A stretch of DNA of 28,498 bases from a virus. The stretch's first letter is position 1, and each line of letters opens with the position of its first letter. The position numbers were made by a program, and so were the translations under genes. The stretch is from IMG/VR virus record IMGVR_UViG_3300050011_000100, positions 1-28,498 of that record. One strand, written 5' to 3'. A model generated the notes under the pieces. That model saw nothing but the letters and a program-made list of their open reading frames with translations, did not search any database and was not told the origin of the DNA. Positions 4,645 through 22,089 of this stretch are shown in pieces.

Positions 4645-6546
4645 ATGCCGCTGCCCGGCTGGCTTCCTCCCGCGTTCCGCCGGTCCGGGGACGTGGCGGA
4701 GAAGAAGAAGCAAGCCGCGGCGATAGCGGCAGGGCCGCAGCGGGCGCTTCCGGCACGCGTGGGATTTGTGCCGGGCATTCCGCAGGGCGGGATAGACGAG
4801 CATATCCAGTCGATCGGCTCATCAGCGGGCACTGACCGCAAGTCGATGCTCGAGGAACTTTACGATTGTTACATAACGGTCCCGTGGGCGTGGGTGTGCG
4901 TTCAGGTCATTGCCCGCACGATCACCGCCGGCGGCCTGTACACCGACTGGGACGCTGACACCGGGGAAGGCGACAAAGCCCCGGACAAGCCCCCGGCCGT
5001 GGTGGCACTGGAACGGTTCTACGCGTTCGCGAACCCCACCCAGGACATCCGGCAGATACTCCGGAACGCGATCGCCGCCCTGATCGTGTTCGGTGACGCC
5101 CTGCTCGAGGTGGCGTGGGACGGGCCGACCCCGGTGGCCCTGTACAACCTTGACGTGCCCACCACCTACCCGCGTGCGGACGAGCACGGGATGGTAACCG
5201 GGTGGGTGCAGCAGACCGACCTGGGGCAGACCGCGGAGTTCGAGTCCCGTGAGGTCATCCACATCAGCCTTGACAGTGCCCGCCCCGGTGTCAACGGGGT
5301 AGGCCCGGCGCAGGCGATGCTGCAGCCGATGGCCGCATGGCTGTACGCGTCCGCTTTGGAGAAGGAGATGCTCCGCAAGGGGCTCCCCGCCAATCTTCAC
5401 GTCGACCTGCCTGTCGGCACCTCTGATGATGAGGTGACCCGGTTCGATAACCGGTACCGGTCGCGGAACCTCGGGACGAAGAACGTGGGCGCCCCGCTGA
5501 TCTCCAAGGGCGGCGGGAAGGCGACCGAGTACGCGGCCGGGAAGCTCGCGGATGTCCTGGCGGCGAAGCGGGACGCGCGTGACGAGATCGTCGCCGGGTG
5601 CGGTGTCCCCCCGGCCGAAGCGGGCATCATCGAGTCGGGGAACCTCGGGGGAGGCACCGGGGACGCGCAGCACCGGGCGTTCATGCTGAATACCTGCAAC
5701 CCGGTCGGCGAGCTGGTCCTTGAGAAGCTGAACTTCCACATCGCCGTTGAGGGTTTCGGGATCCAGGGGTGGCACAGCAAGTTCCGCGAGGTCGACTACC
5801 GTGACTCGATGCTGGTGGAGCAGATCCGCGACACGAGGCTGAGGAACGGCACGTGGACCCGGAACCGGTACGCGGCCGACATCAACGAGCCGCCGGTTGA
5901 GGGCGGAGACGACGCGGTCCTGGTCGACCGGCAGAACCTGGTGCTGTGGTCGGACATGAACGCCATGTCGAAAGCCATGGTTGCGTCCAAGGCCGGTCCC
6001 GCTGTCGCTCCGGCCGTTCCCGGCCAGGTGCCCGGCCAGCCGCCGCAGGGGCCGCCCGCCCCTGAGTCACTGGCACGAGGCAGGGCCGGGGTGCGGGAAG
6101 CACTCCGTGCCTACCGGGCAGCCGAGCAGGCACTGTACGAAGACGCCGCGTCGGGTGTTGCCGCGATGCTCGCGAAGAACTTCAGCCCCGCCGCAACGAA
6201 ATGGGCCAGGAAAGCCGCATGGGCGGGCCCGTCGAAGGTGCCGCTGTCGAAGATCGACTTCTCCGACAAGGCCGAGTGGGACGCGTCGAAAGAGCCCGGC
6301 CAGCTGAAACGGATGCGCGCCAAGCTCCGCAAGCGGGCCGCTAAACGGGAGCAGATGAAGCCCGTTGTCCTGGTGAAAACACCCGGCGGAGCGAAGCTGA
6401 TCATCGCGGACGGCCACCACCGGGTACTCGCCGCACAGGCCGAAGGCCAGGGCTGGGTGTGGGCGTATACCGGCAAGGTCGACGCCGATCACGGGGACTG
6501 GGAAGTCATGGCCAGCGCCGAGCGAGACCGCGACAAGGCCGCCTGA
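4645..6546 (+). CDS. Portal protein with a C-terminal ParB-like domain
   Basis: Portal proteins form the ring through which DNA enters the capsid. Residues about 50-430 follow the HK97/SPP1-type portal pattern, including the stretch around ALIVFGDALLEVAWDG (145-160), a clip/stem region around 220-330 (IIESGNLGGGTGDAQH) and DVPTTYPR near 170-177. A Pro-rich linker (450-475) follows. Residues about 531-612 look like a ParB/sulfiredoxin-type domain: an initial VPLSKIDF strand, then VVLVKT and the IIADGHHRVLAAQ signature (586-598). The fusion is unusual; such domains bind nucleotides or DNA in other settings. Position right after the large terminase fits. The portal call is firm, the domain identity is good, and its job here is unknown. 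Confidence 0.93.
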   Translation: MPLPGWLPPAFRRSGDVAEKKKQAAAIAAGPQRALPARVGFVPGIPQGGIDEHIQSIGSSAGTDRKSMLEELYDCYITVPWAWVCVQVIARTITAGGLYTDWDADTGEGDKAPDKPPAVVALERFYAFANPTQDIRQILRNAIAALIVFGDALLEVAWDGPTPVALYNLDVPTTYPRADEHGMVTGWVQQTDLGQTAEFESREVIHISLDSARPGVNGVGPAQAMLQPMAAWLYASALEKEMLRKGLPANLHVDLPVGTSDDEVTRFDNRYRSRNLGTKNVGAPLISKGGGKATEYAAGKLADVLAAKRDARDEIVAGCGVPPAEAGIIESGNLGGGTGDAQHRAFMLNTCNPVGELVLEKLNFHIAVEGFGIQGWHSKFREVDYRDSMLVEQIRDTRLRNGTWTRNRYAADINEPPVEGGDDAVLVDRQNLVLWSDMNAMSKAMVASKAGPAVAPAVPGQVPGQPPQGPPAPESLARGRAGVREALRAYRAAEQALYEDAASGVAAMLAKNFSPAATKWARKAAWAGPSKVPLSKIDFSDKAEWDASKEPGQLKRMRAKLRKRAAKREQMKPVVLVKTPGGAKLIIADGHHRVLAAQAEGQGWVWAYTGKVDADHGDWEVMASAERDRDKAA

Positions 6547-7004: not shown

Positions 7005-7421
7005 TCAGGCGAACGGCGATCGCTGCACGGTGGATGCCCACTGCGTTTCCGTGTTGCTCACGGCAACCAAAGGGCGCTGCTCGTGAGGCGTTCCCGCGCT
7101 GAGCGTCCCGTTTGCGTAGCGTTCGGCGCGCACGCCATCCGGCATGATCTCGAAGTCTCCCCGGCAGTTATCGCTGGCGCATCCGTCAATGAGCCCGCGC
7201 TTGATGAGTTTCTTGGCCTTGGCCCTGACGACCTTCTCGGGGACCTGCACCGACCCGTCCGTCGCTCCCGGGCCTCCGATCCATTCCGGGTGGCCGTCGA
7301 GCACGGCGGCGATGTCCCAGATGGACGCCCCGATCCACTGCGGGTTACTGCCCCACCGGTCGCAGTGGACAGTTCGGATGGCGTCGAGAAACGCGTCGTC
7401 GGTGATGTCTGCGGCTTTCAT
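7005..7421 (-). CDS. Winged-helix-like hypothetical protein, antisense in the packaging/head operon
   Basis: This is a 138-residue minus-strand gene. The region from about residue 55 to 95 (QVPEKVVRAKAKKLIKRGLI then DGC) reads as a winged-helix recognition unit followed by a Cys-containing loop (CASDNCRGDFEI). This layout is seen in actinophage proteins that link a wHTH to a small metal site. The N-terminal part (ADITDDAFLDAIRT) is a helical extension. On the minus strand CAGGAT lies 6 bases before the ATG, similar to a -10 element of a leaderless transcript. It faces two plus-strand genes and interrupts an otherwise plus-strand block, suggesting separate acquisition and control. Confidence 0.72.
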   Translation of the reverse strand: MKAADITDDAFLDAIRTVHCDRWGSNPQWIGASIWDIAAVLDGHPEWIGGPGATDGSVQVPEKVVRAKAKKLIKRGLIDGCASDNCRGDFEIMPDGVRAERYANGTLSAGTPHEQRPLVAVSNTETQWASTVQRSPFA

Positions 7422-8304: not shown

Positions 8305-8621
8305 ATGAGTGCATCTGCGATATCGACGACGAAAGCGAAGGAACCGCAAGCATGGACTTCGGTCAGGCACTAGCTGCCCTCAAGAACGGCAGGCAGGTTG
8401 CCCGGCACGGCTGGAACGGCACCGGCATGTTCGTCGCCTACCAGGCCGGCTACCCGGACGGGATCGGGATCAACGCGAACACCGCGACCGCGACCGGCAT
8501 CCCGCAGGGCACCGTGTGCGTCTTCCGGCCGTACCTGATGATGAAGACCGCCGACGACGAGTTCGTGCCGTGGGTGGCGTCTCAGACGGACCTGCTGGCC
8601 GACGACTGGTTCGAGGTCTGA
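8259..8621 (+). CDS. tad2: Tad2-like anti-Thoeris protein (DUF2829) with N-terminal zinc knuckle
   Basis: Tad2 (DUF2829) proteins are phage anti-defence factors. They bind the signalling molecule made by Thoeris ThsB, so the ThsA effector is not triggered. Residues 32-120 match the family pattern closely: MDFGQALAALKNGRQVARHG then WNGTGMFVAY near the start, and PYLMMKTADDEFVPWVASQT then DLLADDW at the end. The residues before 32 (MSRVCPDC...CIC) add a CxxC...CxC knuckle not part of the usual short family. The ATG at 8259 has GAGGA just upstream; the ATG at 8352 (Met32) would give the core domain alone and has AAGGAA upstream, so both forms are possible. Its place between portal and MuF-like genes is a typical guest-gene slot. 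Confidence 0.85.
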   Translation: MSRVCPDCLNPLRPVNECICDIDDESEGTASMDFGQALAALKNGRQVARHGWNGTGMFVAYQAGYPDGIGINANTATATGIPQGTVCVFRPYLMMKTADDEFVPWVASQTDLLADDWFEV

Positions 8622-8640
8622 CCGCTACGGAGGCTGTCCG

Positions 8641-9615
8641 GTGCCGCTCCCTCCGCTGCCGTGCCTGCACTGCCCCCCTGACGGGTCGCCGTGCTCGAAC
8701 TGCGACGACGACGGAGACAGTACCCCGCCGCCGGTAGCCGAGGCCGCCCCCGCGATCGACCTGGGCAACCTGCAAGGCATCTGGGCGGACGTCTTCGGCC
8801 GGCAGGACGCCCTCTACGCCAAGCACGAGCGGAAAGCCCGCGCCGCATGGCGGAAGACCACAGCCGGGCTCGACCTCGCCGCCCTCGTGACCGCGTTCCG
8901 CCGCCACGCCCTCATGAACGACGACGGGCCCGCCGCAGGAACCGACTCCGACTCGCCCGAAGCCGCTAAGCGGCACAAGGCCGAGATCCTCGCCCTTGCC
9001 CGGTCGATGGCTTCCGGGTTCCTCGCCGGCGTCAACGACCAGCCTGATTACAGTCTCCTGCTCGCCGTGCTCACCGCCGCGCTCACCGCCGCGGCGGGCG
9101 AGGGAACCGCTGCGGCGCTCGCCGTGTCCGCCGCAGAAGCGGGCTACCTGGCGTTCGCCTGGGAGAAAGCCGCCCGCGACGGCAGGACCGCCCCCGACCC
9201 GGGAACGGTTAACGGGTGGCTCGCGAAGATCCTCGCCGGGGCTGTCACCGACCTCGCCCGGACACTGGCCGCCGGGGCGATCGCGGGCTTGTCCGCTGAA
9301 GCGATACTCAAGGCTGCGTCGAAGGTTCTCGCCGCAGGCCGGTCGGTGGCCGTGTTCGCGAACTATGCCATGACGGCGGCGGTCAGTGCGGCTGCCGCCG
9401 CTGCTTACGCGGCGCTCGGCGGCATTGAGCTGCTGGATTTTGTCACGGCGGGCGATGGCAGGGTTTGTACCGTTTGCGGCGCTTGCGAGGACAACAGCCC
9501 GTACAGCATCGCGGACTACCCCGGAAGTCAGCATTCGAGATGCCGCTGCCAGCCGGTCCCTTCCGCAGGCATGACGCTCCCCTTCGGCGCATTCGCCGCC
9601 TACCTCCTGTCCTGA
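8641..9615 (+). CDS. MuF-like minor head protein
   Basis: MuF/SPP1 gp7-type proteins are minor capsid components that interact with the portal and enter the head. The C-terminal part has the family signature: DFVTAGDGRVCTVCGACEDN, then PYS..DYPG..H..CRC (Cys276, 279, 282, His298, Cys301, 303), a metal-binding fold. The N-terminus has an extra Cys-rich stretch (CLHCPPDGSPCSNC). Residues about 100-260 are Ala-rich helices, unusually hydrophobic between 130 and 165 and 235 and 262. The start is a GTG at 8641 with ACGGAGG 6 bases upstream. Position after portal and before protease/scaffold fits. Confidence 0.85.
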   Translation: MPLPPLPCLHCPPDGSPCSNCDDDGDSTPPPVAEAAPAIDLGNLQGIWADVFGRQDALYAKHERKARAAWRKTTAGLDLAALVTAFRRHALMNDDGPAAGTDSDSPEAAKRHKAEILALARSMASGFLAGVNDQPDYSLLLAVLTAALTAAAGEGTAAALAVSAAEAGYLAFAWEKAARDGRTAPDPGTVNGWLAKILAGAVTDLARTLAAGAIAGLSAEAILKAASKVLAAGRSVAVFANYAMTAAVSAAAAAAYAALGGIELLDFVTAGDGRVCTVCGACEDNSPYSIADYPGSQHSRCRCQPVPSAGMTLPFGAFAAYLLS

Positions 9616-9639
9616 CAACCCGAACAGGAGGAACGCCCC

Positions 9640-10077
9640 GTGTCCAACCTCTACCCCCGCTCCCGCGTCCTGTGGACCCTCGCCCCCTCCGGCCTCGGAA
9701 CCACCATCGCCGGGTCCGGGAACTCCGGCGGATGGCAAGGCTTCCCGCCGGGCCAGGACGTGCCCCCGCTCGACTTCGCCGCCTCCATCGACCTCCGCGA
9801 CATACAGGACGTGGCGCTGTTCGTGAACGTCGGTGCCATCACCAGCACGCCCGCGCTGGTGGTACAGCTCGACTTGTTCGACGACGCCGGGAACATGTAC
9901 GCGCAGGTCATGAAGACCGCCACCCTCTCGGCCCCCGGGTCCGCCGCCCCCGTGTATGCCGGCATCCACGGCGGTTCCGCCTCCTCCTACCTGGTCCTGC
10001 CGTCCTGGGGCCGCGTGTCGTGGACCTGCACGGGCGGCACCGTCACCGGCACATCCATTTTCCTCTACGGCCGGTAA
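9640..10077 (+). CDS. Beta-rich putative virion protein
   Basis: This 145-residue protein starts at a GTG behind AGGAGGA, a strong site in keeping with high expression. Predicted structure from composition is nearly all beta: VLWTLAPSG, VALFVNVG, ALVVQLDLFDDAG, YLVLPSWGRVSWTCTGGT and SIFLYGR. This fits a jelly-roll or Ig-like decoration or fibre protein. It sits with a second beta-rich gene between the MuF-like and protease genes, where capsid accessory proteins are common. No named family is recognised. Confidence 0.65.
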   Translation: MSNLYPRSRVLWTLAPSGLGTTIAGSGNSGGWQGFPPGQDVPPLDFAASIDLRDIQDVALFVNVGAITSTPALVVQLDLFDDAGNMYAQVMKTATLSAPGSAAPVYAGIHGGSASSYLVLPSWGRVSWTCTGGTVTGTSIFLYGR

Positions 10078-10114
10078 CGGACCGTCCGCCTGAACCCCGG
10101 AAAGGGGCCGAACC

Positions 10115-10453
10115 ATGCCGCAGCGTTCACCCGTCCTTTGGCACGCGAACTTCGACGACCACGGCAACTCCACCGTCGCCGAGGCGACCGCCGCGATCGC
10201 CGGCAACGCAGCGTCCACCACCGTCGTCAAGGCGGCCGGGGGCCGCCTGATGATCGTCGTGGTCACCGCCGCCGGCACCTCGACGGCCACCACCATCTAC
10301 GACAGTGCCAGTACCGGCACCGGCACCATCCTGGCGGTCATCCCCGCGACGACCGCTGTCGGCACGCAGCTCACCATCAACCTCCCCGCCGCGGTCGGCA
10401 TCACGGTCGTTCAGGGCGCGAGCAGCGTGGGCCTCACCATCGGGTACAACTAG
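10115..10453 (+). CDS. Small beta-rich putative virion protein
   Basis: This 112-residue, Thr/Ala/Val-rich protein has alternating strands (RLMIVVVTAAGTSTATTIYD, TILAVIPA, QLTINLPAAVGITVVQG, VGLTIGYN), as seen in trimeric phage surface proteins. The start ATG has GGAAAGGGG upstream. Its TAG stop overlaps the TAG of the convergent nuclease gene in the tetranucleotide CTAG (10450-10453). The role as decoration or stabilising protein is inferred from composition and place. Confidence 0.6.
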   Translation: MPQRSPVLWHANFDDHGNSTVAEATAAIAGNAASTTVVKAAGGRLMIVVVTAAGTSTATTIYDSASTGTGTILAVIPATTAVGTQLTINLPAAVGITVVQGASSVGLTIGYN

Positions 10454-13895: not shown

Positions 13896-15272
13896 ATGTC
13901 CGAGATCCGCGAGGCGCTTACCGCCGCGGGCGCCAGTCCGTTCGTCCCGAAGCTCATCGATCCGACGCTGGTGGAGTACCAGCGCCGGTTCGCGCCGTGG
14001 TGCCGGGCGATCCCGACGAAGAAGACGAACAGCACCCAGTACTTCTTCAACACCCGCACGGTGGTCGTGTCCGGCGGGGCGGTGCCCGACGGCGGCGCCC
14101 GCACCGTCTCCACCAGCACCTACCAGCAGGGCAGCTTCACGATGGCCCACATCCAGGCCGTCGGCAGTGTCACCGGGTACGCGCAGGCGGTCACCACCGA
14201 CCTCGTTGACCTGCGTGCCACTGAAATCAACGGGGCCATCAAGGGCTACTACTGGGACATCGAGACGTTCTGCGGGTGGGGCAACGCGGCGTCGACCCTG
14301 AACCAGGCTCAGCCCCAGTTCGACGGGCTCGACACCCAGATCCAGCAGTTCACGGGCGGGACGCAGAACACGATCGACTACGCGGGCCGGTCGCTGTCCC
14401 TGTCGACGCTCGACGAGCTCGCGGTGCTGGTGTCGGGGAACGCCGCCGAGGTGGTGTACAACCCGGGGTGGATGTACGTCATGTCGGTCAGCTCAGAGGC
14501 GCGGATCGCGCAGCTCCTGACCGCGCAGCAGCGGTACAACAGCGTGGAGATCGCCGCCGGCCTGGTCGTGGCCACGTACAAGAACATCCCGCTCGTGCCG
14601 TCGTCGTTCCTCAGCACGCTGGGGTACCAGATGGGCACGGTCACGGCGGCGACCGCCACGACCGGGGGCACCCTCCCGGCGTCGACCACCTACCGGTACG
14701 TGGTGTCGGCCGTCATCGCCCGGCAGGGCGAGATCCTGCCCTCGGTGGAGGTGTCGCAGGCCACCGGCGGCAGCACGTCGACCAACACGGTCACCCTGTC
14801 GTTCTCCCAGCCGGGCGGGCAGGACGGGCTCGGCCCGCAGCTGTACAAGGTGTACCGGTCGCCGGCGAACGGGGTCCCCGGGTCCGAAACCTTCTTGGGC
14901 TACGTCGACTCCACGGTCGGGCTCGCGTCCGACCAGGTGACGCCGATCCTCGCCACCCAGATCGTCGACACCGGCACTGCGCTCGTCCCGCAGGCCAGCG
15001 GCCCCATCGTTCCGAGCATCCTCCCGGTGCAGTACTACAGCACCAACGCGGCCATGCTGCCGCCGGGAGCCGGTCAGGAGAACATCTACCTGATGTCCCG
15101 CGACCCGGGCAACATCGTCCGGCCGTTCGTTCGCGAGGCGCTTCCGCTAGATGTGTTTCCAACCACTTCGTCCCCGGATAGCATGCCATTCGCCATAATG
15201 GGGGATACGTGCTTGGCGGTGCGAACGCCCAAGTTTGTCGGACGTGCGTACCGTGTGGCGGTAGCGGTCTAG
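13896..15272 (+). CDS. Major capsid protein with an inserted Ig/FN3-like domain
   Basis: This is the shell protein, 458 residues, called by place (after protease-scaffold, before connector), strong ribosome site (AGAGGAG) and pattern. The N-arm is helical (MSEIREALTAAGASPFVPKL). Regions like YFFNTRT, STYQQGSFTMAHIQAVGSVT and DLRATEINGAIKGYYWDIET read as HK97-fold E-loop and spine. Residues about 246-345 are Thr/Ser-rich and beta-like (TYRYVVSAVIARQGEILPSV, QLYKVYRSPANG), consistent with an FN3/Ig-like surface insertion. The last 44 codons (from 15138) switch to A/T-ending codons (16 of 44 against 4 of 44 in the preceding block, hand count) although the protein stays sensible. This suggests replacement of the 3' end next to the HNH gene. 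Confidence 0.85.
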   Translation: MSEIREALTAAGASPFVPKLIDPTLVEYQRRFAPWCRAIPTKKTNSTQYFFNTRTVVVSGGAVPDGGARTVSTSTYQQGSFTMAHIQAVGSVTGYAQAVTTDLVDLRATEINGAIKGYYWDIETFCGWGNAASTLNQAQPQFDGLDTQIQQFTGGTQNTIDYAGRSLSLSTLDELAVLVSGNAAEVVYNPGWMYVMSVSSEARIAQLLTAQQRYNSVEIAAGLVVATYKNIPLVPSSFLSTLGYQMGTVTAATATTGGTLPASTTYRYVVSAVIARQGEILPSVEVSQATGGSTSTNTVTLSFSQPGGQDGLGPQLYKVYRSPANGVPGSETFLGYVDSTVGLASDQVTPILATQIVDTGTALVPQASGPIVPSILPVQYYSTNAAMLPPGAGQENIYLMSRDPGNIVRPFVREALPLDVFPTTSSPDSMPFAIMGDTCLAVRTPKFVGRAYRVAVAV

Positions 15273-15322
15273 TTGTCCGTTTCAGTCTGGCGGGTCAGCC
15301 GGAGACTTCACGCACTGATCCG

Positions 15323-15328
15323 CTAGAC
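15323..15328 (+). promoter_or_regulatory. Possible -10 element (TAGACT) for the HNH gene
   Basis: TAGACT is a typical actinobacterial -10 hexamer. It lies just after the capsid stop and 13 bases ahead of the hairpin at 15341. No good -35 is found 17-18 bases upstream, so the call is weak. Confidence 0.35.
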
Positions 15329-15340
15329 TGTTCGCATAAG

Positions 15341-15372
15341 GTTCCGGAGGGTGCTAGAACACCCCCCGGAAC
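15341..15372 (+). terminator. Hairpin between capsid and HNH genes (terminator or leader structure)
   Basis: A 13-base stem with one A/C mismatch pairs GTTCCGGAGGGTG (15341-15353) with CACCCCCCGGAAC (15360-15372); the loop is CTAGAA. No T-tract follows, so it may be a transcription-processing or leader hairpin rather than a strong terminator. It is part of the 131-base gap after the capsid gene. Confidence 0.5.
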
Positions 15373-15403
15373 GGACATCATCGATCTGATTGGGCAGACC
15401 GAC

Positions 15404-16021
15404 ATGGACGATCGTACGCTCGCGCTGTTCATGAGCAAAGTGGAGATACAGCCGGACGGCTGCTGGCGCTGGACCGGCCACATCAAGAAAGACGGCTACG
15501 GAGCCTTCTACATCGACGGCGCGAACCGCCTCGCGCACCGCGTGGCTTACGAGCACTTCATCGGCCCGATCCCGGACGGCCTTGAACTGGACCACCTGTG
15601 TCACACCAGGAGTTCGGGATGTGCTGGCGGCAAGACCGACTTGCATCGGCGGTGCGTCAACGCCATCCGTGATCTTGAGCCGGTAACGGGCATAGAGAAC
15701 ATCCGCCGGGGTGCGGCGCTCATCACCCACTGCCCGCAGAATCACGAGTACACGCCCGAGAACACGTACTGGGCGCCGAACGGCGGCCGGGAATGCCGCG
15801 AGTGCCGCGCGGAAACCGCACGCCGTTGGGTGGCGGAGCATAACCCGGGCGTCCTTCACGGCACCGAGACCCACTGCCCGCAGAACCACCCGTATTCGGG
15901 CGACAACCTGTACATCATCCCGTCAACGGGCGGGCGGGTGTGCCGGATTTGCAAGCGCGAGCAGGGCCGCGAGTGGATGCGTGCCAAGCGCGCTGCGGCC
16001 AAGGCGGCTCGAATCGCATGA
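15404..16021 (+). CDS. HNH endonuclease with two C-terminal zinc modules (putative homing endonuclease)
   Basis: This is a 205-residue free-standing HNH protein. Residues 17-104 follow the phage HNH_3 pattern: DGCWRWTG, AHRVAYEHFIGPIPDGLELD then H64 (LDHLC), Cys73/Cys84 and CVN (Asn86) before LEPVTGIENIRRG. Where relatives have a His before LEPV, this one has Asp90 (RDLEPV), so the third catalytic/metal position is altered. Two zinc modules follow: HCPQNH...GGRECREC (109-134) and HCPQNH...GGRVCRIC (157-183). The end is basic. The ATG at 15404 is chosen by homology of the start; Met10 at 15431 is an alternative, and no good ribosome site is visible. It lies right after the capsid gene, a classic homing site. 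Confidence 0.88.
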   Translation: MDDRTLALFMSKVEIQPDGCWRWTGHIKKDGYGAFYIDGANRLAHRVAYEHFIGPIPDGLELDHLCHTRSSGCAGGKTDLHRRCVNAIRDLEPVTGIENIRRGAALITHCPQNHEYTPENTYWAPNGGRECRECRAETARRWVAEHNPGVLHGTETHCPQNHPYSGDNLYIIPSTGGRVCRICKREQGREWMRAKRAAAKAARIA

Positions 16022-16504: not shown

Positions 16505-17167
16505 GTGGCAGACAGCCCCATCCCCCTATGCTCCGTGGCGGCCTTCACCGAGTCAGCCTTCGGCGACCTGGTGAAAGACTTTTCAGACCAGGCCAAATCC
16601 GATCTCACCATCGAGGCCACCCGCATCTGCGAGGGCGAGGCGGGGAACCGGCGCCTTGCCCCGTTCACGGTCACCGAAACAACAAGAGCGGACGGGATCG
16701 ACCCGGATGAGTACCCGCCGGGTGCGAGCATGCCGATGCCGATCCAGGGTACTGTCGGGTGGTCGCAGGCTCTGGCGATGGGCGGCAACGACCTTGTGCG
16801 GCACTGCTGGGTGTCGCAGTTCCCGCCCCGCTACCCGGACCTGTGGGCGTACTCGGGCGTGTCGGTCACAGTGGTCCGGTCGTATGCGGGCACGGAGACG
16901 CTCAGCCAGTCGCAGGTCCTGAACGGTCCGGACAACCTGGGTCACCTGTGGTTCCAGATCGGCACCCTCGTGCCTATCGGGTCGCGGATCGCGGTCACCT
17001 ATTCGGGCGGGTACACGGTGGCGATCCCCGCTGATCTTGTGCGGGCATGCAAGCTGGTGTGCGCGTGGCTGGCGATCGGGGAACTTAACCCGGGGACCAC
17101 CGACCACAACCCGGACAAGCTGTATACGGATGCGCTGATGATCCTCGCGAACTACCAGCGGTCCTGA
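16505..17167 (+). CDS. Head-tail connector (adaptor) protein
   Basis: This 220-residue protein starts at a GTG after a G-rich run. An N-terminal helical part (SAFGDLVKDFSDQAKSDLTI then EATRICEGEAGNRRL) resembles HK97 gp6/SPP1 gp15-type adaptors, which bind under the portal. It carries a central beta-rich insertion (about 65-165: VSVTVVRSYAGTETLSQSQV) and a closing helical part (PADLVRACKLVCAWLAIGEL) ending near YTDALMILANYQRS. Place after capsid genes and before tail genes supports the role. The family name is by analogy, not certain. Confidence 0.75.
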   Translation: MADSPIPLCSVAAFTESAFGDLVKDFSDQAKSDLTIEATRICEGEAGNRRLAPFTVTETTRADGIDPDEYPPGASMPMPIQGTVGWSQALAMGGNDLVRHCWVSQFPPRYPDLWAYSGVSVTVVRSYAGTETLSQSQVLNGPDNLGHLWFQIGTLVPIGSRIAVTYSGGYTVAIPADLVRACKLVCAWLAIGELNPGTTDHNPDKLYTDALMILANYQRS

Positions 17168-17781
17168 CCGTGGCACGGGCACGGCGGGCGCGGCGGAACA
17201 AGAAGGTGCGGTTCCGTTCCCACCGGGGCGCCGGGCACTCGAAAGTGTTCCGGGCTCATAAGGCGGCGGTTACCCGGCGGGTGTTCGGCGCCCACCTGAA
17301 ACGGGCGCTGAAAGCACGGCGGGTCAAGGCGGCGCGACCGTGGAAAGCACCGAAGCCGGCGGCGTACAAGGGGATCGGGACGAGGAACCCGTTCCCGGTG
17401 CACGCGAAAGCGAAGGCGTTCAAGGCCGCGGGGCGGAACGGGCACGCGATGCGGGCCGTCAAGCGGAAGAAAGCGGCGAAATACCGGAAGGCTTAGCCGG
17501 GCGGGTCCTAACCAGCCCTGGAGTACCGCCACCTGCTCGGGACTCAGTTCCTTGCCGCCTGCGGTGACGTGATCGAACTCGATCGCCGGATCGGATTCGC
17601 CGCAGCCGTCCAAGTCCGGGCCGCGTCCCGGCTGCGGGTCTGCGTCGGCCCGGAAGACGAGCCTGCCGTCCTCAACCGACCACTCGCCCCTCAATGTCAC
17701 GGTGAACCGGCAGTGGCCGCAGACGGCTAGCGGGTTCTCGATTTCCAGCGTCGCGTGACGCTCGGGCAGTTTCGTGCTCAC
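17152..17781 (-). CDS. Last gene of the antisense operon; C-terminal half is antisense to the basic protein gene
   Basis: The frame starts at a GTG (17781) with GAAGGA 8 bases upstream. The first about 90 residues look natural: ERHATLEIENPLAVCGHCRF, VTLRGEWSVEDGRLVF, AIEFDHVTAGGKELSPEQVA and VLQGW, with one CGHC motif and beta character. After about residue 92 it becomes Arg/Pro-rich and merely mirrors the plus-strand basic gene. One base shift near 17510 would end the protein at a TAG (17508-17510) right beside the plus-strand stop, like the other convergent junctions here. So the real gene is probably 17508-17781, with a frameshift or natural readthrough. The function is unknown. Confidence 0.5.
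   Translation of the reverse strand: MSTKLPERHATLEIENPLAVCGHCRFTVTLRGEWSVEDGRLVFRADADPQPGRGPDLDGCGESDPAIEFDHVTAGGKELSPEQVAVLQGWLGPARLSLPVFRRFLPLDGPHRVPVPPRGLERLRFRVHRERVPRPDPLVRRRLRCFPRSRRLDPPCFQRPFQVGAEHPPGNRRLMSPEHFRVPGAPVGTEPHLLVPPRPPCPCHGQDRW
17170..17496 (+). CDS. Small, very basic protein
   Basis: This 108-residue protein is rich in Arg, Lys and Ala throughout (MARARRARRNKKVRFRSHRG ... KRKKAAKYRKA), with few acidic residues. It starts at a GTG two bases after the connector stop and uses the preferred CGG/AAG/GCG codons, which supports it over the antisense frame. It could bind DNA or RNA, or neutralise charge at the head-tail joint. No family is recognised. The convergent minus-strand frame 17152-17781 runs through it. 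Confidence 0.7.
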   Translation: MARARRARRNKKVRFRSHRGAGHSKVFRAHKAAVTRRVFGAHLKRALKARRVKAARPWKAPKPAAYKGIGTRNPFPVHAKAKAFKAAGRNGHAMRAVKRKKAAKYRKA

Positions 17782-17795
17782 GGTTCAATCCTTCG

Positions 17796-18092
17796 CTAGA
17801 TGATGCTGGACAGCGGGAACGGCGGGTAGGGCATCGGCGGAACGGCGTAGGTCTCCGGCCGCCACGGCGAGCGGGGCGGTTCCAGGTCGAAGTCGAACGG
17901 CGGCAGCGGGAAGACAGGCGGCAGCACGCGGGGCACCCGCTTGAACGTGCATGTCGGGCATGACTGTCCGACAGCGGGGCCTCTCATCGGAGGCCACGGC
18001 GGCTCCCATGCTGGCAGCAGCTTGCGGATGGTGAATGCCGGGCCCCATGTGGCACCGAGCGTGTGGACGTACGGCCCGATTGGCTCGATCAT
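17796..18092 (-). CDS. Pro-rich small protein of the antisense operon
   Basis: This 98-residue protein starts at the ATG at 18092, inside the ATGA overlap (18089-18092) with the gene before it; a GTG nine bases upstream is an alternative. It has a folded start (IEPIGPYVHTLGATWGPAFT), a CPTC motif and then a Pro/Phe-rich tail (PPVFPLPPFDFDLEPP ... PMPYPPFPLSS). No family is recognised. It is 14 bases from the next gene. Confidence 0.65.
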   Translation of the reverse strand: MIEPIGPYVHTLGATWGPAFTIRKLLPAWEPPWPPMRGPAVGQSCPTCTFKRVPRVLPPVFPLPPFDFDLEPPRSPWRPETYAVPPMPYPPFPLSSII

Positions 18093-18367
18093 GTCGTCCA
18101 CTGCGCCATCATCTCTTCGCTTGCCTGCTTGGCGCGGTCGCTGACGAGCATGTCGAACAGGTCCGCTTCGGGGATCGACTCGTACGGCCCTACCGCGCCC
18201 ACCCAGACGATCCGGCCGAGCAGCCCGAACCTGTGGAACTGGTACCTGACCTGAGTCCCGCCCGGCAGGTCCGCGAAGACCAGGCCGGGCCCCAGAAGCG
18301 CGGCGGCCACCTTGAAATCGCCGCCCTTTAGCGGGCCGTCCATGTAGAGCGGATGTACGTCCCTCAT
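18089..18367 (-). CDS. Small beta-rich protein of the antisense operon
   Basis: This 92-residue protein starts at the ATG at 18367, in an ATGA overlap with the preceding gene and with GAGGAGG upstream. The first two thirds are strands and turns (DFKVAAALLGPGLVFADLPG, TQVRYQFHRFGLLGRIVWVG) and the end is a helix (EADLFDMLVSDRAKQASEEM). The product looks like a compact folded protein. No family is recognised. Confidence 0.65.
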   Translation of the reverse strand: MRDVHPLYMDGPLKGGDFKVAAALLGPGLVFADLPGGTQVRYQFHRFGLLGRIVWVGAVGPYESIPEADLFDMLVSDRAKQASEEMMAQWTT

Positions 18368-18675
18368 CGCTTCCTCCTCTTTACTCGCGCCCGCTGTCTC
18401 CTGTGGTACTCGCCGAGACGAAGGCGGGGCTTCCGCCGGGCGTACCAGTTGATCACGGTCACCGGCCCGGCCGATTCGAACGTCACCGGCAGTTCTTCCC
18501 CATCAGGGCCGTGTGCGGTAATCCGGTAGCCGTACGACCCGTGCCGCCAGTAGTTCCACAGCACCGGCCAGAGCGGGGTGCCGAAGTCCTCGCAGATCGC
18601 CAGCGGCTCACCGGGCCGGTACTCGGGGATGGTCCGGTATCCGGGGATGTGATGGGGCGCAAGCGTCGCGGTCAT
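18364..18675 (-). CDS. Small basic protein of the antisense operon
   Basis: This 103-residue protein starts at the ATG at 18675, overlapping the stop before it by ATGA (18672-18675); the longer open frame upstream is antisense shadow. It holds an aromatic centre (TPLWPVLWNYWRHGSYGYRI), strands (LPVTFESAGPVTVINWY) and a strongly basic C-terminus (RRQRARVKRRKR). The end suggests nucleic-acid contact. No family is recognised. Confidence 0.65.
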   Translation of the reverse strand: MTATLAPHHIPGYRTIPEYRPGEPLAICEDFGTPLWPVLWNYWRHGSYGYRITAHGPDGEELPVTFESAGPVTVINWYARRKPRLRLGEYHRRQRARVKRRKR

Positions 18676-19115
18676 GTCCACGGCTTCCATGCCTGCCTGT
18701 AGTCCGGGTGTGCGTCCCAGATCGCGGCCATGTCGCGAAGCTCCGGGCAGTCGCTCATCTTCTCCGTCACCGGATCGTCGCAGTAACCCTCTGTCCCGCA
18801 GCCCGCGCATGCTTGGGCCCGGTAACTTGGGGTCCCGCCTACAGGGCGGTGCCGTTCGAGGACCCGCCGCTTGGCCGCGACTTCGCGGAGCGCGCGCGCC
18901 GGGTCGTAGCGGGCGATGTGGTCGGCATCCGGGCGCCCCCAGACTCCGCCGCCCTCGTGGCCAGGGCCGGCGACTATGCCAATCCCGCGCAGGATGTGCC
19001 AGCCTCCGTCGCCGTCTTCCCGGCCGACTGCCCATGGCCCGATCGTCGCGGCGTTCGCCGCTGCCTCGTCCTCGTCGAGCCGCGCCCCGATGAACGCCAC
19101 GAGGTCATCGCTCAT
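18672..19115 (-). CDS. DUF6221-like protein (second copy)
   Basis: This 147-residue protein starts at the ATG at 19115 (ATGA overlap with the first copy). It has the DUF6221 layout: MSDDLVAFIGARLDEDEAAA start helix, a glycine-rich middle with HIARYDPARALREVAAKRRV (the family core helix), a Cys-rich stretch (CAGCGTEGYC) and a C-terminal segment (LRDMAAIWDAHPDYRQAWKP). The family occurs in actinobacteria and their phages; its function is unknown to me. It shares the plan with the gene before it, a tandem paralog pair. Confidence 0.8.
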   Translation of the reverse strand: MSDDLVAFIGARLDEDEAAANAATIGPWAVGREDGDGGWHILRGIGIVAGPGHEGGGVWGRPDADHIARYDPARALREVAAKRRVLERHRPVGGTPSYRAQACAGCGTEGYCDDPVTEKMSDCPELRDMAAIWDAHPDYRQAWKPWT

Positions 19116-19513
19116 GCCGACCACCCTTCCTGCCATCCGTCACGGTGCCGGTAACCGGAAGCGAGCAGGCGCACCGCGAGCCGAAGCCCCGACCATTGCC
19201 GCTGCCGTTCGCATTCCGGCCCGAGCATGAGAACCACGTCGTTCTCGCGAGCCTCGTACTCGTCGAGCAGCCGGAGTTTCGCGTCGCAGTCCGCGATCTT
19301 GTCACGCGGGTCATGGATGACGATGTGGGCGGCCTGATGCTCATCCGGAGCGCCCTCATCGTAAACGACCGGCCCCCCGAGGCTTGAGATCGCGCCCGGG
19401 TAGTGCTGAGGGTCGTCCTGCTTCCACTGGGAGCCCTCGCGTGCCGCTAGTTCTGCCGCCGCCTTGTCCGCCTCAACCTGCGCGCGAAGCCATGCGGTCA
19501 TGTCGCCGGTCAC
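19112..19513 (-). CDS. DUF6221-like protein (first copy)
   Basis: This 133-residue protein starts at the ATG at 19513, overlapping the previous stop by 4 bases. MTGDMTAWLRAQVEADKAAA is the family's opening helix; HIVIHDPRDKIADCDAKLRL then LDEYEA is the core; a closing helical part (LRLAVRLLASGYRHRDGWQE) follows. Compared with the second copy, the Cys-rich loop is missing and the middle is shorter. The two copies likely diverged after duplication or were captured separately. Confidence 0.78.
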   Translation of the reverse strand: MTGDMTAWLRAQVEADKAAAELAAREGSQWKQDDPQHYPGAISSLGGPVVYDEGAPDEHQAAHIVIHDPRDKIADCDAKLRLLDEYEARENDVVLMLGPECERQRQWSGLRLAVRLLASGYRHRDGWQEGWSA

Positions 19514-19722
19514 GCCAGTGCCTCGCTTACCCGCTTCATCGCCGGGTCGCTGTCCACGTCGAAGTGCCGTGCGTACCCGTAGACGGCGGCCAGGTCCTCG
19601 CGGTTGACGGTCACGGTCGTACTCGACGCCGACGACGGGGCATCGGGTGGCTGTCCGGCATCCATCGCGGGCCGCATCAAGGTTGCCGGTACCTGCTCCG
19701 GCCTGATCTCGCTCATTTCCAT
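19510..19722 (-). CDS. First gene of the antisense operon, small hypothetical protein
   Basis: This 70-residue protein starts at the ATG at 19722 (an ATG at 19716 is also possible). After a Pro/Ser-rich start comes TVTVNREDLAAVYGYARHFD, then DPAMKRVSEAL. This short helical pattern recurs in actinophage hypothetical proteins. On the minus strand GATACT lies 7 bases before the ATG with no ribosome site, compatible with a leaderless start for the whole seven-gene operon. The plus-strand tail gene begins 33 bases away, divergently. Confidence 0.65.
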   Translation of the reverse strand: MEMSEIRPEQVPATLMRPAMDAGQPPDAPSSASSTTVTVNREDLAAVYGYARHFDVDSDPAMKRVSEALA

Positions 19723-19754
19723 GCCTGCCAGTATCCCGCTACCGGGGGTGACGA

Positions 19755-20258
19755 GTGCCTGCCTACACCGGCATCTCCACAGTAGAGACCCGCGAGACGG
19801 CATGGCTCACCACGGCCGACGCCCTGCCGGCCCTGCTGACCGCCGACGGCGGCCCGTGGGACAACATCCAGGCCTTCTGGACCCGAACCCCCGCAACCCA
19901 GCAGACAACGATCTACGTCATGTCACTGAACCTCGACGACGAGCGGACCTCAAGCCAGCGGATCATGCCGCACTACCAGATCACCCTTGAGTGGCACTGG
20001 CCGATCCGGCAGACATCATCCCCGGTCGCCGAGGGCGAGCAGCAGGCGATGAAGAACGCCAGCGACCTGCTGATACAGCGGGTACGCGGCCCGCTCGGCG
20101 ACAAAACCCACGGCGGCCGGTTCCTGTCCGCCGGGGAAGCCCCGAGGTTCCCGGGCCCGCACTGGTCAATGGAACCGCCGTGGGTGACGATCCCGCAGGA
20201 CAAGGAACTACGCGGAACCCTCGTCTACTACGCCGACGACAACGAGGTAAACGGCTAG
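19755..20258 (+). CDS. Tail terminator / tail completion protein candidate
   Basis: This 167-residue protein starts at a GTG (19755) behind GGGGGTGACGA. It reads as a small alpha-beta protein with strands (TTIYVMSLNLDDERTSSQRI, HYQITLEWHWPIRQ), a helix (AEGEQQAMKNASDLLIQRVR) and closing strands (RGTLVYYADD), the general pattern of phage tail terminator proteins that cap the tail tube. Position between connector and tail tube genes fits. The family cannot be confirmed by eye. Its TAG shares CTAG with the convergent gene that follows. Confidence 0.65.
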   Translation: MPAYTGISTVETRETAWLTTADALPALLTADGGPWDNIQAFWTRTPATQQTTIYVMSLNLDDERTSSQRIMPHYQITLEWHWPIRQTSSPVAEGEQQAMKNASDLLIQRVRGPLGDKTHGGRFLSAGEAPRFPGPHWSMEPPWVTIPQDKELRGTLVYYADDNEVNG

Positions 20259-20596
20259 GCCGTGATCCCGGCCGCGCCCGTTTCGTCTTGGAGATCAGCG
20301 GCGTAGCAGCGGTGCACGGGCAGGTATTCGGCGATCCGGTAGACGAGCGTCCGTCCGTCCGCCTCAATGCGGAGCGCCGCGCCCCGCCAGCCGAACGGGT
20401 CGCCGTCCCCTGGCACCCCGGTTTCGCGTAGCTCCGCCCATGGCGAGTCCCCGGCCTCGACCAGCGCCAGCAGCGGAACCGTGATCAGCACCGAGCGTCC
20501 GGTCGTGGCGATGCGCGGGCCTTCGTCGGTCCAGGCAATAAAGACCTCGCCGCGCCCGTGCTCGGGCAGCCGCTCGCCGATTCCCTCCGCAGTCAT
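20255..20596 (-). CDS. Antisense accessory gene, unknown function
   Basis: This 113-residue protein starts at the ATG at 20596. It is compact and acidic, with strands GEVFIAWTDEGPRIATTGRS, LITVPLLALVEAGD and ALRIEADGRTLVYRIAEYLP, and an end helix. On the minus strand TACGGT lies 6 bases before the ATG, a possible leaderless -10. It is inserted between tail terminator and the small gene at 20633, and its stop overlaps the plus-strand stop in CTAG (20255-20258). No family is recognised. Confidence 0.65.
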   Translation of the reverse strand: MTAEGIGERLPEHGRGEVFIAWTDEGPRIATTGRSVLITVPLLALVEAGDSPWAELRETGVPGDGDPFGWRGAALRIEADGRTLVYRIAEYLPVHRCYAADLQDETGAAGITA

Positions 20597-20632: not shown

Positions 20633-20917
20633 ATGTCCAGATTCCGCAACGACACCGGGGATGTGCGGACGGTCAACGACCTCGGTATCCGGGTCGGCCC
20701 GTTCGAGGAGTTCGACTGGCCGGCCCATGACGTCAAGGTCCACGGCCTGCCCACGGGCTGCACATGGCTTGACGCCCCGGAGAGCGACGCTGCGGCCACG
20801 GAAGCCCACGCCGCCACGGACGGCAGCGGGAACGGCGAGACGCCTCCCACGGACAGCACGCAGCCCGCGAAGACCCAGGGCAAGAAGGCCACGGCCAGCA
20901 AGGAGACCGGCGAATGA
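20633..20917 (+). CDS. Small acidic protein ahead of the tail tube gene
   Basis: This 94-residue protein starts at the ATG at 20633 with GGGAGG upstream. The first 50 residues are folded (MSRFRNDTGDVRTVNDLGIR, VGPFEEFDWPAHDVKVHGLP, GCTWLD) and the rest is a disordered Ala/Thr/Lys tail. It has the same plan as the gene at 16043. It overlaps the tail tube start by ATGA (20914-20917), so the two are coupled. The role is unknown. Confidence 0.7.
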   Translation: MSRFRNDTGDVRTVNDLGIRVGPFEEFDWPAHDVKVHGLPTGCTWLDAPESDAAATEAHAATDGSGNGETPPTDSTQPAKTQGKKATASKETGE

Positions 20918-22089
20918 CCTACCTTTCCCGCCTCGCCAAGTTCGGGCTCGTCAAGGAGTCGGTGCAGTACACGTACCAGGTTCCGGGGATCTCGGTCCCG
21001 TTCTCGACCGTCAAGTACCTCGACATCATCGCCCCGCTGCGGGACGAGTCGATGCGGGCCAACGACAGTGTTCTCCAGGGCCTCAACCAGGGCCCCTCAT
21101 ACTCCACGGTCGACATCGAGACCAACGCCTACGCGGACCTGATCGGGCACTGGCTGCGGGCCATCATCGGCCCCGACACGGTAGCCGCAGGGGTGACCAC
21201 GACCCTGGCCGCGAACTCCGCCGTGAACGCCACCACCCTGTCCCTCACCGCCTCGGTGGCCTCCAACACGGTCATCCAGGTCAGCGACACTGCCGGGGCG
21301 AACCTCGAGTGGGTGAAGGTCGGCACGGTTACCGGTTCCGGCCCGTACACGGCCCCGGTGACAGTCGGCGGCGGGTCGGGCGGCAACAGCACCAAGTTCG
21401 CGCACACTGCTGCGGGCGGGGCCGTGGTCTCCCAGTCGACGCATGTCTTCAAGCAGTCGCGGACGTTCTCCACCGTGTGGCCGACGTACTCGTTCACGAG
21501 CGATGACGGCACTGACCAGCTCGGCTGGGCCGGGTGCGTCGCCAGTGAGCTGGGGATCAAGATCGACCCCAAGGGTTTCATCACGATGAGCCCGAAGTTC
21601 TCCGGGTACCCGTCGGCTGTCGAGTCGACGTTTGCCTATGCGGCGTCCGCGGTGCAGCCGATCGTGGGCTGGGCGTGGACCGTGACCAACGGCGGGGCGG
21701 CGTCCACGCGCGGGCTGACGATGGACTTCACGTTCAAGCGGCCGGTGGAGGTCATCGACTCGTCGGACGGGACTCAGGGGCCGCGCGAGCTGTTCGCCGG
21801 GGCGCTCGAATCTGACGGAACGTACAAAGCGATCTTTGAGAACGATACCGACCGGAACCTGTTCAAGCTGTACTCGCAGCTCCCGACGGTGCACACACTT
21901 ACCCAGCCGGTCACGTCGGGCGGCGCGGTCCTGGCGATCACCATGAGCCAGTCCGGCTACACAACGGGCGAGACGGACCTCGGAAGTGTGTACGCGCAGC
22001 TGACCCAGGCGCTGTCCGGTATCGCCAACGCGACCGATGGCGGGGTCGTATCTGTCAGTTTGTCCAATTTCCTCACATCTGCCTACTGA
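20914..22089 (+). CDS. Major tail tube protein with a beta-rich insertion
   Basis: This 391-residue protein is called from its place before the frameshifted chaperone and tape measure and from its beta-rich pattern. The N-terminus (KESVQYTYQVPGISVPFSTV then KYLDII) and later parts (GCVASELGIKIDPKGFITMS, MDFTFKRPVEVID, LFAGALESDGTYKAIFEND) fit tail tube proteins. Residues about 92-160 are Thr/Ser/Ala-rich with VIQVSDTAGANLEWVKVGTV, looking like a surface Ig-like or loop insertion between tube strands. It is expected to form the polymeric tube around the tape measure. Confidence 0.85.
   Translation: MTYLSRLAKFGLVKESVQYTYQVPGISVPFSTVKYLDIIAPLRDESMRANDSVLQGLNQGPSYSTVDIETNAYADLIGHWLRAIIGPDTVAAGVTTTLAANSAVNATTLSLTASVASNTVIQVSDTAGANLEWVKVGTVTGSGPYTAPVTVGGGSGGNSTKFAHTAAGGAVVSQSTHVFKQSRTFSTVWPTYSFTSDDGTDQLGWAGCVASELGIKIDPKGFITMSPKFSGYPSAVESTFAYAASAVQPIVGWAWTVTNGGAASTRGLTMDFTFKRPVEVIDSSDGTQGPRELFAGALESDGTYKAIFENDTDRNLFKLYSQLPTVHTLTQPVTSGGAVLAITMSQSGYTTGETDLGSVYAQLTQALSGIANATDGGVVSVSLSNFLTSAY

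Follow-up and report, generated by a model that had tools for sequence, protein, structure and literature searches.

Within the head-tail genes of a soil actinobacterial virus, a run of small genes lies on the opposite strand, which raises the question of whether it encodes one dedicated system or fills a site whose content changes from phage to phage. We analyzed the whole of IMG/VR record IMGVR_UViG_3300050011_000100 (28,498 bases, hereafter the window), an actinophage-like fragment extending from terminase to tape measure.

A coupled minus-strand block among the late genes

The features of the site are listed below, with the block genes numbered from the first gene onward and other loci given by L numbers.

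16505-17167, plus: head-tail adaptor, left border of the slot; phrog_442 in 9/10 homologues
17170-17496, plus: Lys/Arg-rich late gene inside the slot, coding-like, convergent with the minus block; conserved in L042 and L043
17506-17781, minus: g7, about 92 aa with a CGHC motif; shares 79% identity with the L042 homologue (95 aa)
17796-18092, minus: g6, 98 aa, Pro-rich, with a CxTC motif and an LSSII end that is conserved; related genes seen nowhere but in this slot of L042 and L043
18089-18367, minus: g5, 92 aa orphan, coding-like, no relatives found; predicted beta-rich at low confidence
18364-18675, minus: g4, 103 aa, basic tail EYHRRQRARVKRRKR, the tail DNA including the AGGAGG for g5; related genes in L018 and, as a partial copy, in L043
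18672-19115, minus: g3, 147 aa, DUF6221 of a second lineage, C..C...C pattern; PF19730 102.2 bits
19112-19513, minus: g2, 133 aa, DUF6221; PF19730 74.7 bits; slot-associated lineage with L042, L049 and L050
19510-19722, minus: g1, 70 aa, opens the block; matches L045 in its N-terminal part and L043 in its C-terminal part
19723-19740, minus: predicted promoter of the block, leaderless with an extended -10 (CGG-GATACT-ggcaggc-ATG), within the 32-bp gap that precedes the putative tail terminator gene
19755-20258, plus: putative tail terminator, right border of the slot; labelled by position alone
20255-20596, minus: an eighth antisense gene (family F6) occupying the following intergenic slot; upstream TACGGT-ggtggg-ATG

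Seven small coding ORFs made up the block, which extends from 19722 to about 17506 on the strand opposite to the head-tail genes. GC content at codon position 3 was highest in all seven minus frames (joint highest for g2), and each gene obtained its best coding score in its own frame (for g7, in its N-terminal part). Five of the six junctions were 4-bp overlaps, namely GTGA between g1 and g2 and ATGA at g2/g3, g3/g4, g4/g5 and g5/g6; g6 and g7 were spaced by 14 nt containing an AAGGA Shine-Dalgarno (SD) sequence. The first-pass annotation, which had described nearly all genes as joined by overlaps in a compact, translationally coupled accessory block placed antisense, was thus borne out on these points. 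Its seven minus-strand genes, given as 17152-19722, proved to be real coding frames, with the corrections that g7 ends at about 17506 and that the eighth minus-strand gene had been missed. The g7 ORF stays open to 17152, and we took the protein as about 92 aa because the stretch 17152-17505 was not coding-like, the plus-strand gene to which it lies antisense was coding-like, and the L042 homologue stops at 95 aa. As for the borders, reported as a connector and a tail terminator gene, the adaptor label agrees with the phrog_442 matches, the immediate left neighbor of the block being the plus-strand gene at 17170-17496, and the gene labelled tail terminator had no PHROG match. No terminator-like site was found at the block end, so the block transcript might run on.

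Several further observations were made in the window. Another antisense gene of 138 aa (7005-7421, minus), preceded by CAGGAT-cgggtc-ATG in the same leaderless design, lies between portal and protease. A 608-aa minus ORF (8470-10296), considered as a second antisense block, was not coding-like, and the plus ORFs opposite it (8641-9615, 9640-10077 and 10115-10453) were. Beside the terminase region, the C-terminal part of a TnpB RNA-guided nuclease (3-806, plus; NF040570, 277 bits) is cut at the contig edge, and an HNH endonuclease gene (15209-16021, plus) directly follows the major capsid gene, the end of which its ORF overlaps. The basic tail EYRRRQRARVKRRKR (window 18364-18410, minus; also in L018, L043, L087 and L099) is fused to differing small proteins, its DNA including the AGGAGG of the next gene; the tail/SD junction REYRRRQRARVKRRKR as an exchange site was set aside, having been encountered in only five contigs, and a repeat shared by the starts of g1 and g4 was judged to be chance.

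Gene content of the same slot in relatives

Relatives were gathered as 62 viral loci retrieved with the major capsid protein and the tail protein (gene at 20914-22089). The tail protein also retrieved ten loci from genomes of Streptosporangiaceae, Catenulispora, Kitasatospora and Streptomyces; among known phages, neither megablast with the region nor tblastn with the tail protein gave a match. Genes of the relatives were called by a home-made codon-based caller trained on this virus family, so that slot counts may shift a little; by these calls the slot was empty in L017, L046 and L058, with an adaptor-tail gene distance of 39-54 bp, and the block therefore separates genes that stand next to each other in relatives, as expected of phage morons. 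In other kin the site was occupied by a plus-strand gene or by antisense genes of different identity, and many kin were without any antisense block. On the tail-protein tree, the state of the antisense block required five changes, at least three of them forced by supported branches. The slot orders were as follows.

Window: g1, DUF6221, DUF6221, g4, g5, g6, g7
L042: DUF6221, x, g6, y, F18, g7
L043: g1-like, g4 remnant, zinc-ribbon-like protein, g6-like, F18
L018: g4, zinc-ribbon-like protein (the same as in L043), another
L045: g1 N-terminal fusion and an 81-aa gene

The only recurring members were DUF6221, g1, g4, g6 and g7, each in few close kin and in consistent order, the common order across the window, L042, L043 and L018 being g1, DUF6221, g4, g6, F18, g7 with gains and losses. 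No relatives of g6 and g7 were found outside this slot; tblastn of g4, g5, g6 and g7 in phages returned no matches, and neither did a search of 296 genomes from a single actinobacterial class for g5 and g7, run without a positive control. The structure model of g5 (pLDDT 51) was too poor to use. Between g7 and its L042 homologue, dN was 0.11 and dS 0.64 (dN/dS about 0.17), showing purifying selection on g7.

An antisense block is therefore present at the same place in relatives, mostly with other passengers, and slot genes were gained and lost singly, the complete window set occurring in no relative. Such single-gene turnover, together with the different passengers, argues for an accessory slot and not for one conserved system, and the earlier proposal of a single undescribed multi-gene system could not be sustained: conservation as a block had been named as the mark of a system, yet the closest kin share the order and differ in the members, and the occurrence of DUF6221 singly at several sites comes close to the scatter of lone genes that had been named as its refutation. 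In L042, this slot also contains a tRNA-Ala gene (5653-5724, plus) where the antisense block ends; its anticodon AGC is unusual for bacteria.

To our knowledge, DUF6221 (PF19730) is a family without known function. With membership defined as a PF19730 HMM score above the curated gathering cut-off of 27.6 bits, both g2 and g3 belong to it, as the description of two DUF6221-like paralogs had anticipated; their identity of only 24% indicates two lineages and not a recent duplication, so that two divergent members stand here in one antisense operon. DUF6221 genes were also found on the minus strand at other slots (L010, L014, L049 and L050) and singly in actinophages that are unrelated, in several cases close to lysogeny or early genes, and their neighbors across bacterial genomes showed no common partner. 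The structure model, mostly helical (pLDDT 71), had no match in the PDB, and a literature search found no mention of the family. At L003 (1454-4231, plus), a DUF6221 gene lies directly behind an AAA ATPase and an RloB-like gene and converges with an NlpC/P60-like gene (names by eye).

Whether the block could nevertheless be a dedicated system, with several proteins cooperating in anti-defence or superinfection exclusion, was weighed on these data. Such a system would account for small orphan proteins within one coupled operon, has precedent in prophage-expressed defence genes of actinophages (Sbash 30/31 and CarolAnn 43/44, PMC6426596), and gains some support from the distant L003 gene beside its AAA ATPase/RloB-like pair, yet it is unlikely given that the gene set is conserved in no relative, that DUF6221 occurs singly in other slots and phages, and that g1-g7 had no PADLOC match and no transmembrane candidates (maximum 19-residue hydropathy 0.03-1.29). 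Searches of g1-g7 against NCBIfam likewise gave no match.

The predicted antisense promoter

When antisense first genes taken from different slots of kin were aligned, a -10-like hexamer became visible just before the start codon, and the start-site region was alignable among the window, L042, L043 and L045 despite their different first genes. In a test set of 21 non-redundant late-region antisense first genes, each no more than 60 bp away from the late gene that it faces, similarity-filtered and of shared ancestry, NANNNT ended 6-7 nt before the candidate start codon in 19, compared to a mean of 2.2 and a maximum of 8 in 2000 composition shuffles. TANNNT was present in nine of the 21 (null 0.35, maximum 3), other spacings accounted for 0-2 cases, leaving the spacing almost only 6-7 nt, and the extended -10 G at the TGn position (G-N-NANNNT) was found in 17 of the 19 motif-bearing genes. 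No -35 consensus emerged among the 21, and the absence of a -35 explains why a sigma-70 consensus scan of the block returned no promoter. Plus-strand genes carried a -10 element at 6-7 nt in 15 of 437 cases; in a wider set, TANNNT at this spacing preceded 14/48 first genes, 3/64 internal minus genes and 0/437 plus genes, and SD-like sites were seen at 20/48 antisense first genes versus 47/64 internal genes.

These motif statistics argue for a promoter of the block's own, the other feature expected of a moron, and uphold the earlier suggestion of a likely leaderless promoter; with the -10 element 6-7 nt before the start codon, leaderless transcripts are predicted. The conserved element among the slots of kin is this putative promoter, not the gene set. 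In actinobacteria, leaderless initiation with a TANNNT element is a familiar feature. Motif and spacing are the same here, with the -10 about 6-7 nt before the start codon and no SD needed, and would be reused for antisense passengers inside a phage late operon. In mycobacteriophage Adephagia, a leaderless gene expressed in lysogeny has been predicted (PMC11373665).

The ribosome-binding site of the putative tail terminator shares its gap with the antisense promoter motif. In several slots the predicted promoters lie in the same short gap as a late-gene ribosome-binding site, which, along with the missing terminator, could also mean that the antisense transcript is itself the function. It would dampen the late head-tail genes of the lysogen, as an antisense RNA or by interfering with their transcription, and the ORFs would be secondary; this reading is quite improbable, as all seven ORFs are coding-like, g7 is under purifying selection, and many kin are without the antisense block.

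Proposed expression and role of the block

We consider it likely that the block is a moron-type accessory operon with its own leaderless promoter, located in a late-operon slot of a probably temperate actinophage and switched on when the late operon is silent. Host RNA polymerase would start at the extended -10, 6-7 nt before the start codon, to give a leaderless mRNA, from which the downstream block genes would be translated by coupling via the 4-bp overlaps. The promoter, in a gap of about 30 bp with the next late gene's ribosome-binding site, would face the late transcript, such that the block would fire in lysogeny or early infection and opposing late transcription would overrun and silence it. 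Expression early or in lysogeny is consistent with this architecture, and passengers that are on while the late operon is silent would be expected to act on the host or on competing phages, not in virion assembly, making a role in host fitness or in competition with other phages plausible. It is from these computed features that we infer transcription, its timing and such a benefit. Some larger kin records carry tyrosine integrases, and distant kin reside in Streptomyces, Kitasatospora and Catenulispora genomes, which supports a temperate life style; the 28.5-kb window is a fragment with no integrase, and the temperateness of its phage is accordingly drawn from kin. That the passengers are passive genomic cargo, fortuitous transfers without selected function and soon lost again, would suit the high turnover, the orphans and the presence of partial genes, the g4 remnant of L043 among them, and is quite improbable in view of the conserved promoter architecture, the coupling and the purifying selection on g7.

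Phage morons are accessory genes that sit among late genes and have a promoter of their own, and the block resembles them in lying between conserved structural genes, in being absent in kin and in its predicted independent transcription. Unlike usual morons, it is antisense and multi-gene, with coupled overlaps and no terminator seen, and its predicted promoter, leaderless with an extended -10, shares a gap with the ribosome-binding site of the next late gene. The Sbash and CarolAnn genes offer a possible analogy, being non-structural, near virion genes and expressed in lysogeny, some of them leftward operons of unknown function; their position is central, close to the ends of the integrated prophage, unlike the head-tail slot here.

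If the proposed moron-type operon is real, it would be a clear case in which accessory and virion genes are mutually exclusive through facing promoters. More tentatively, and with the odds somewhat against it, the whole actinophage family may place antisense leaderless extended -10 promoters in late-gene ribosome-binding-site gaps at several slots, so that genes dropped in there are on while virion genes are off and are silenced by late transcription; these slots would then be ready-made places to find lysogeny-expressed anti-phage genes. Should transcripts confirm the prediction, the motif G-N-NANNNT, placed 6-7 nt ahead of a start codon on the strand opposite to a late gene, would become a simple search rule for accessory genes hidden inside actinophage structural operons, which would be a likely source of new prophage-encoded traits.
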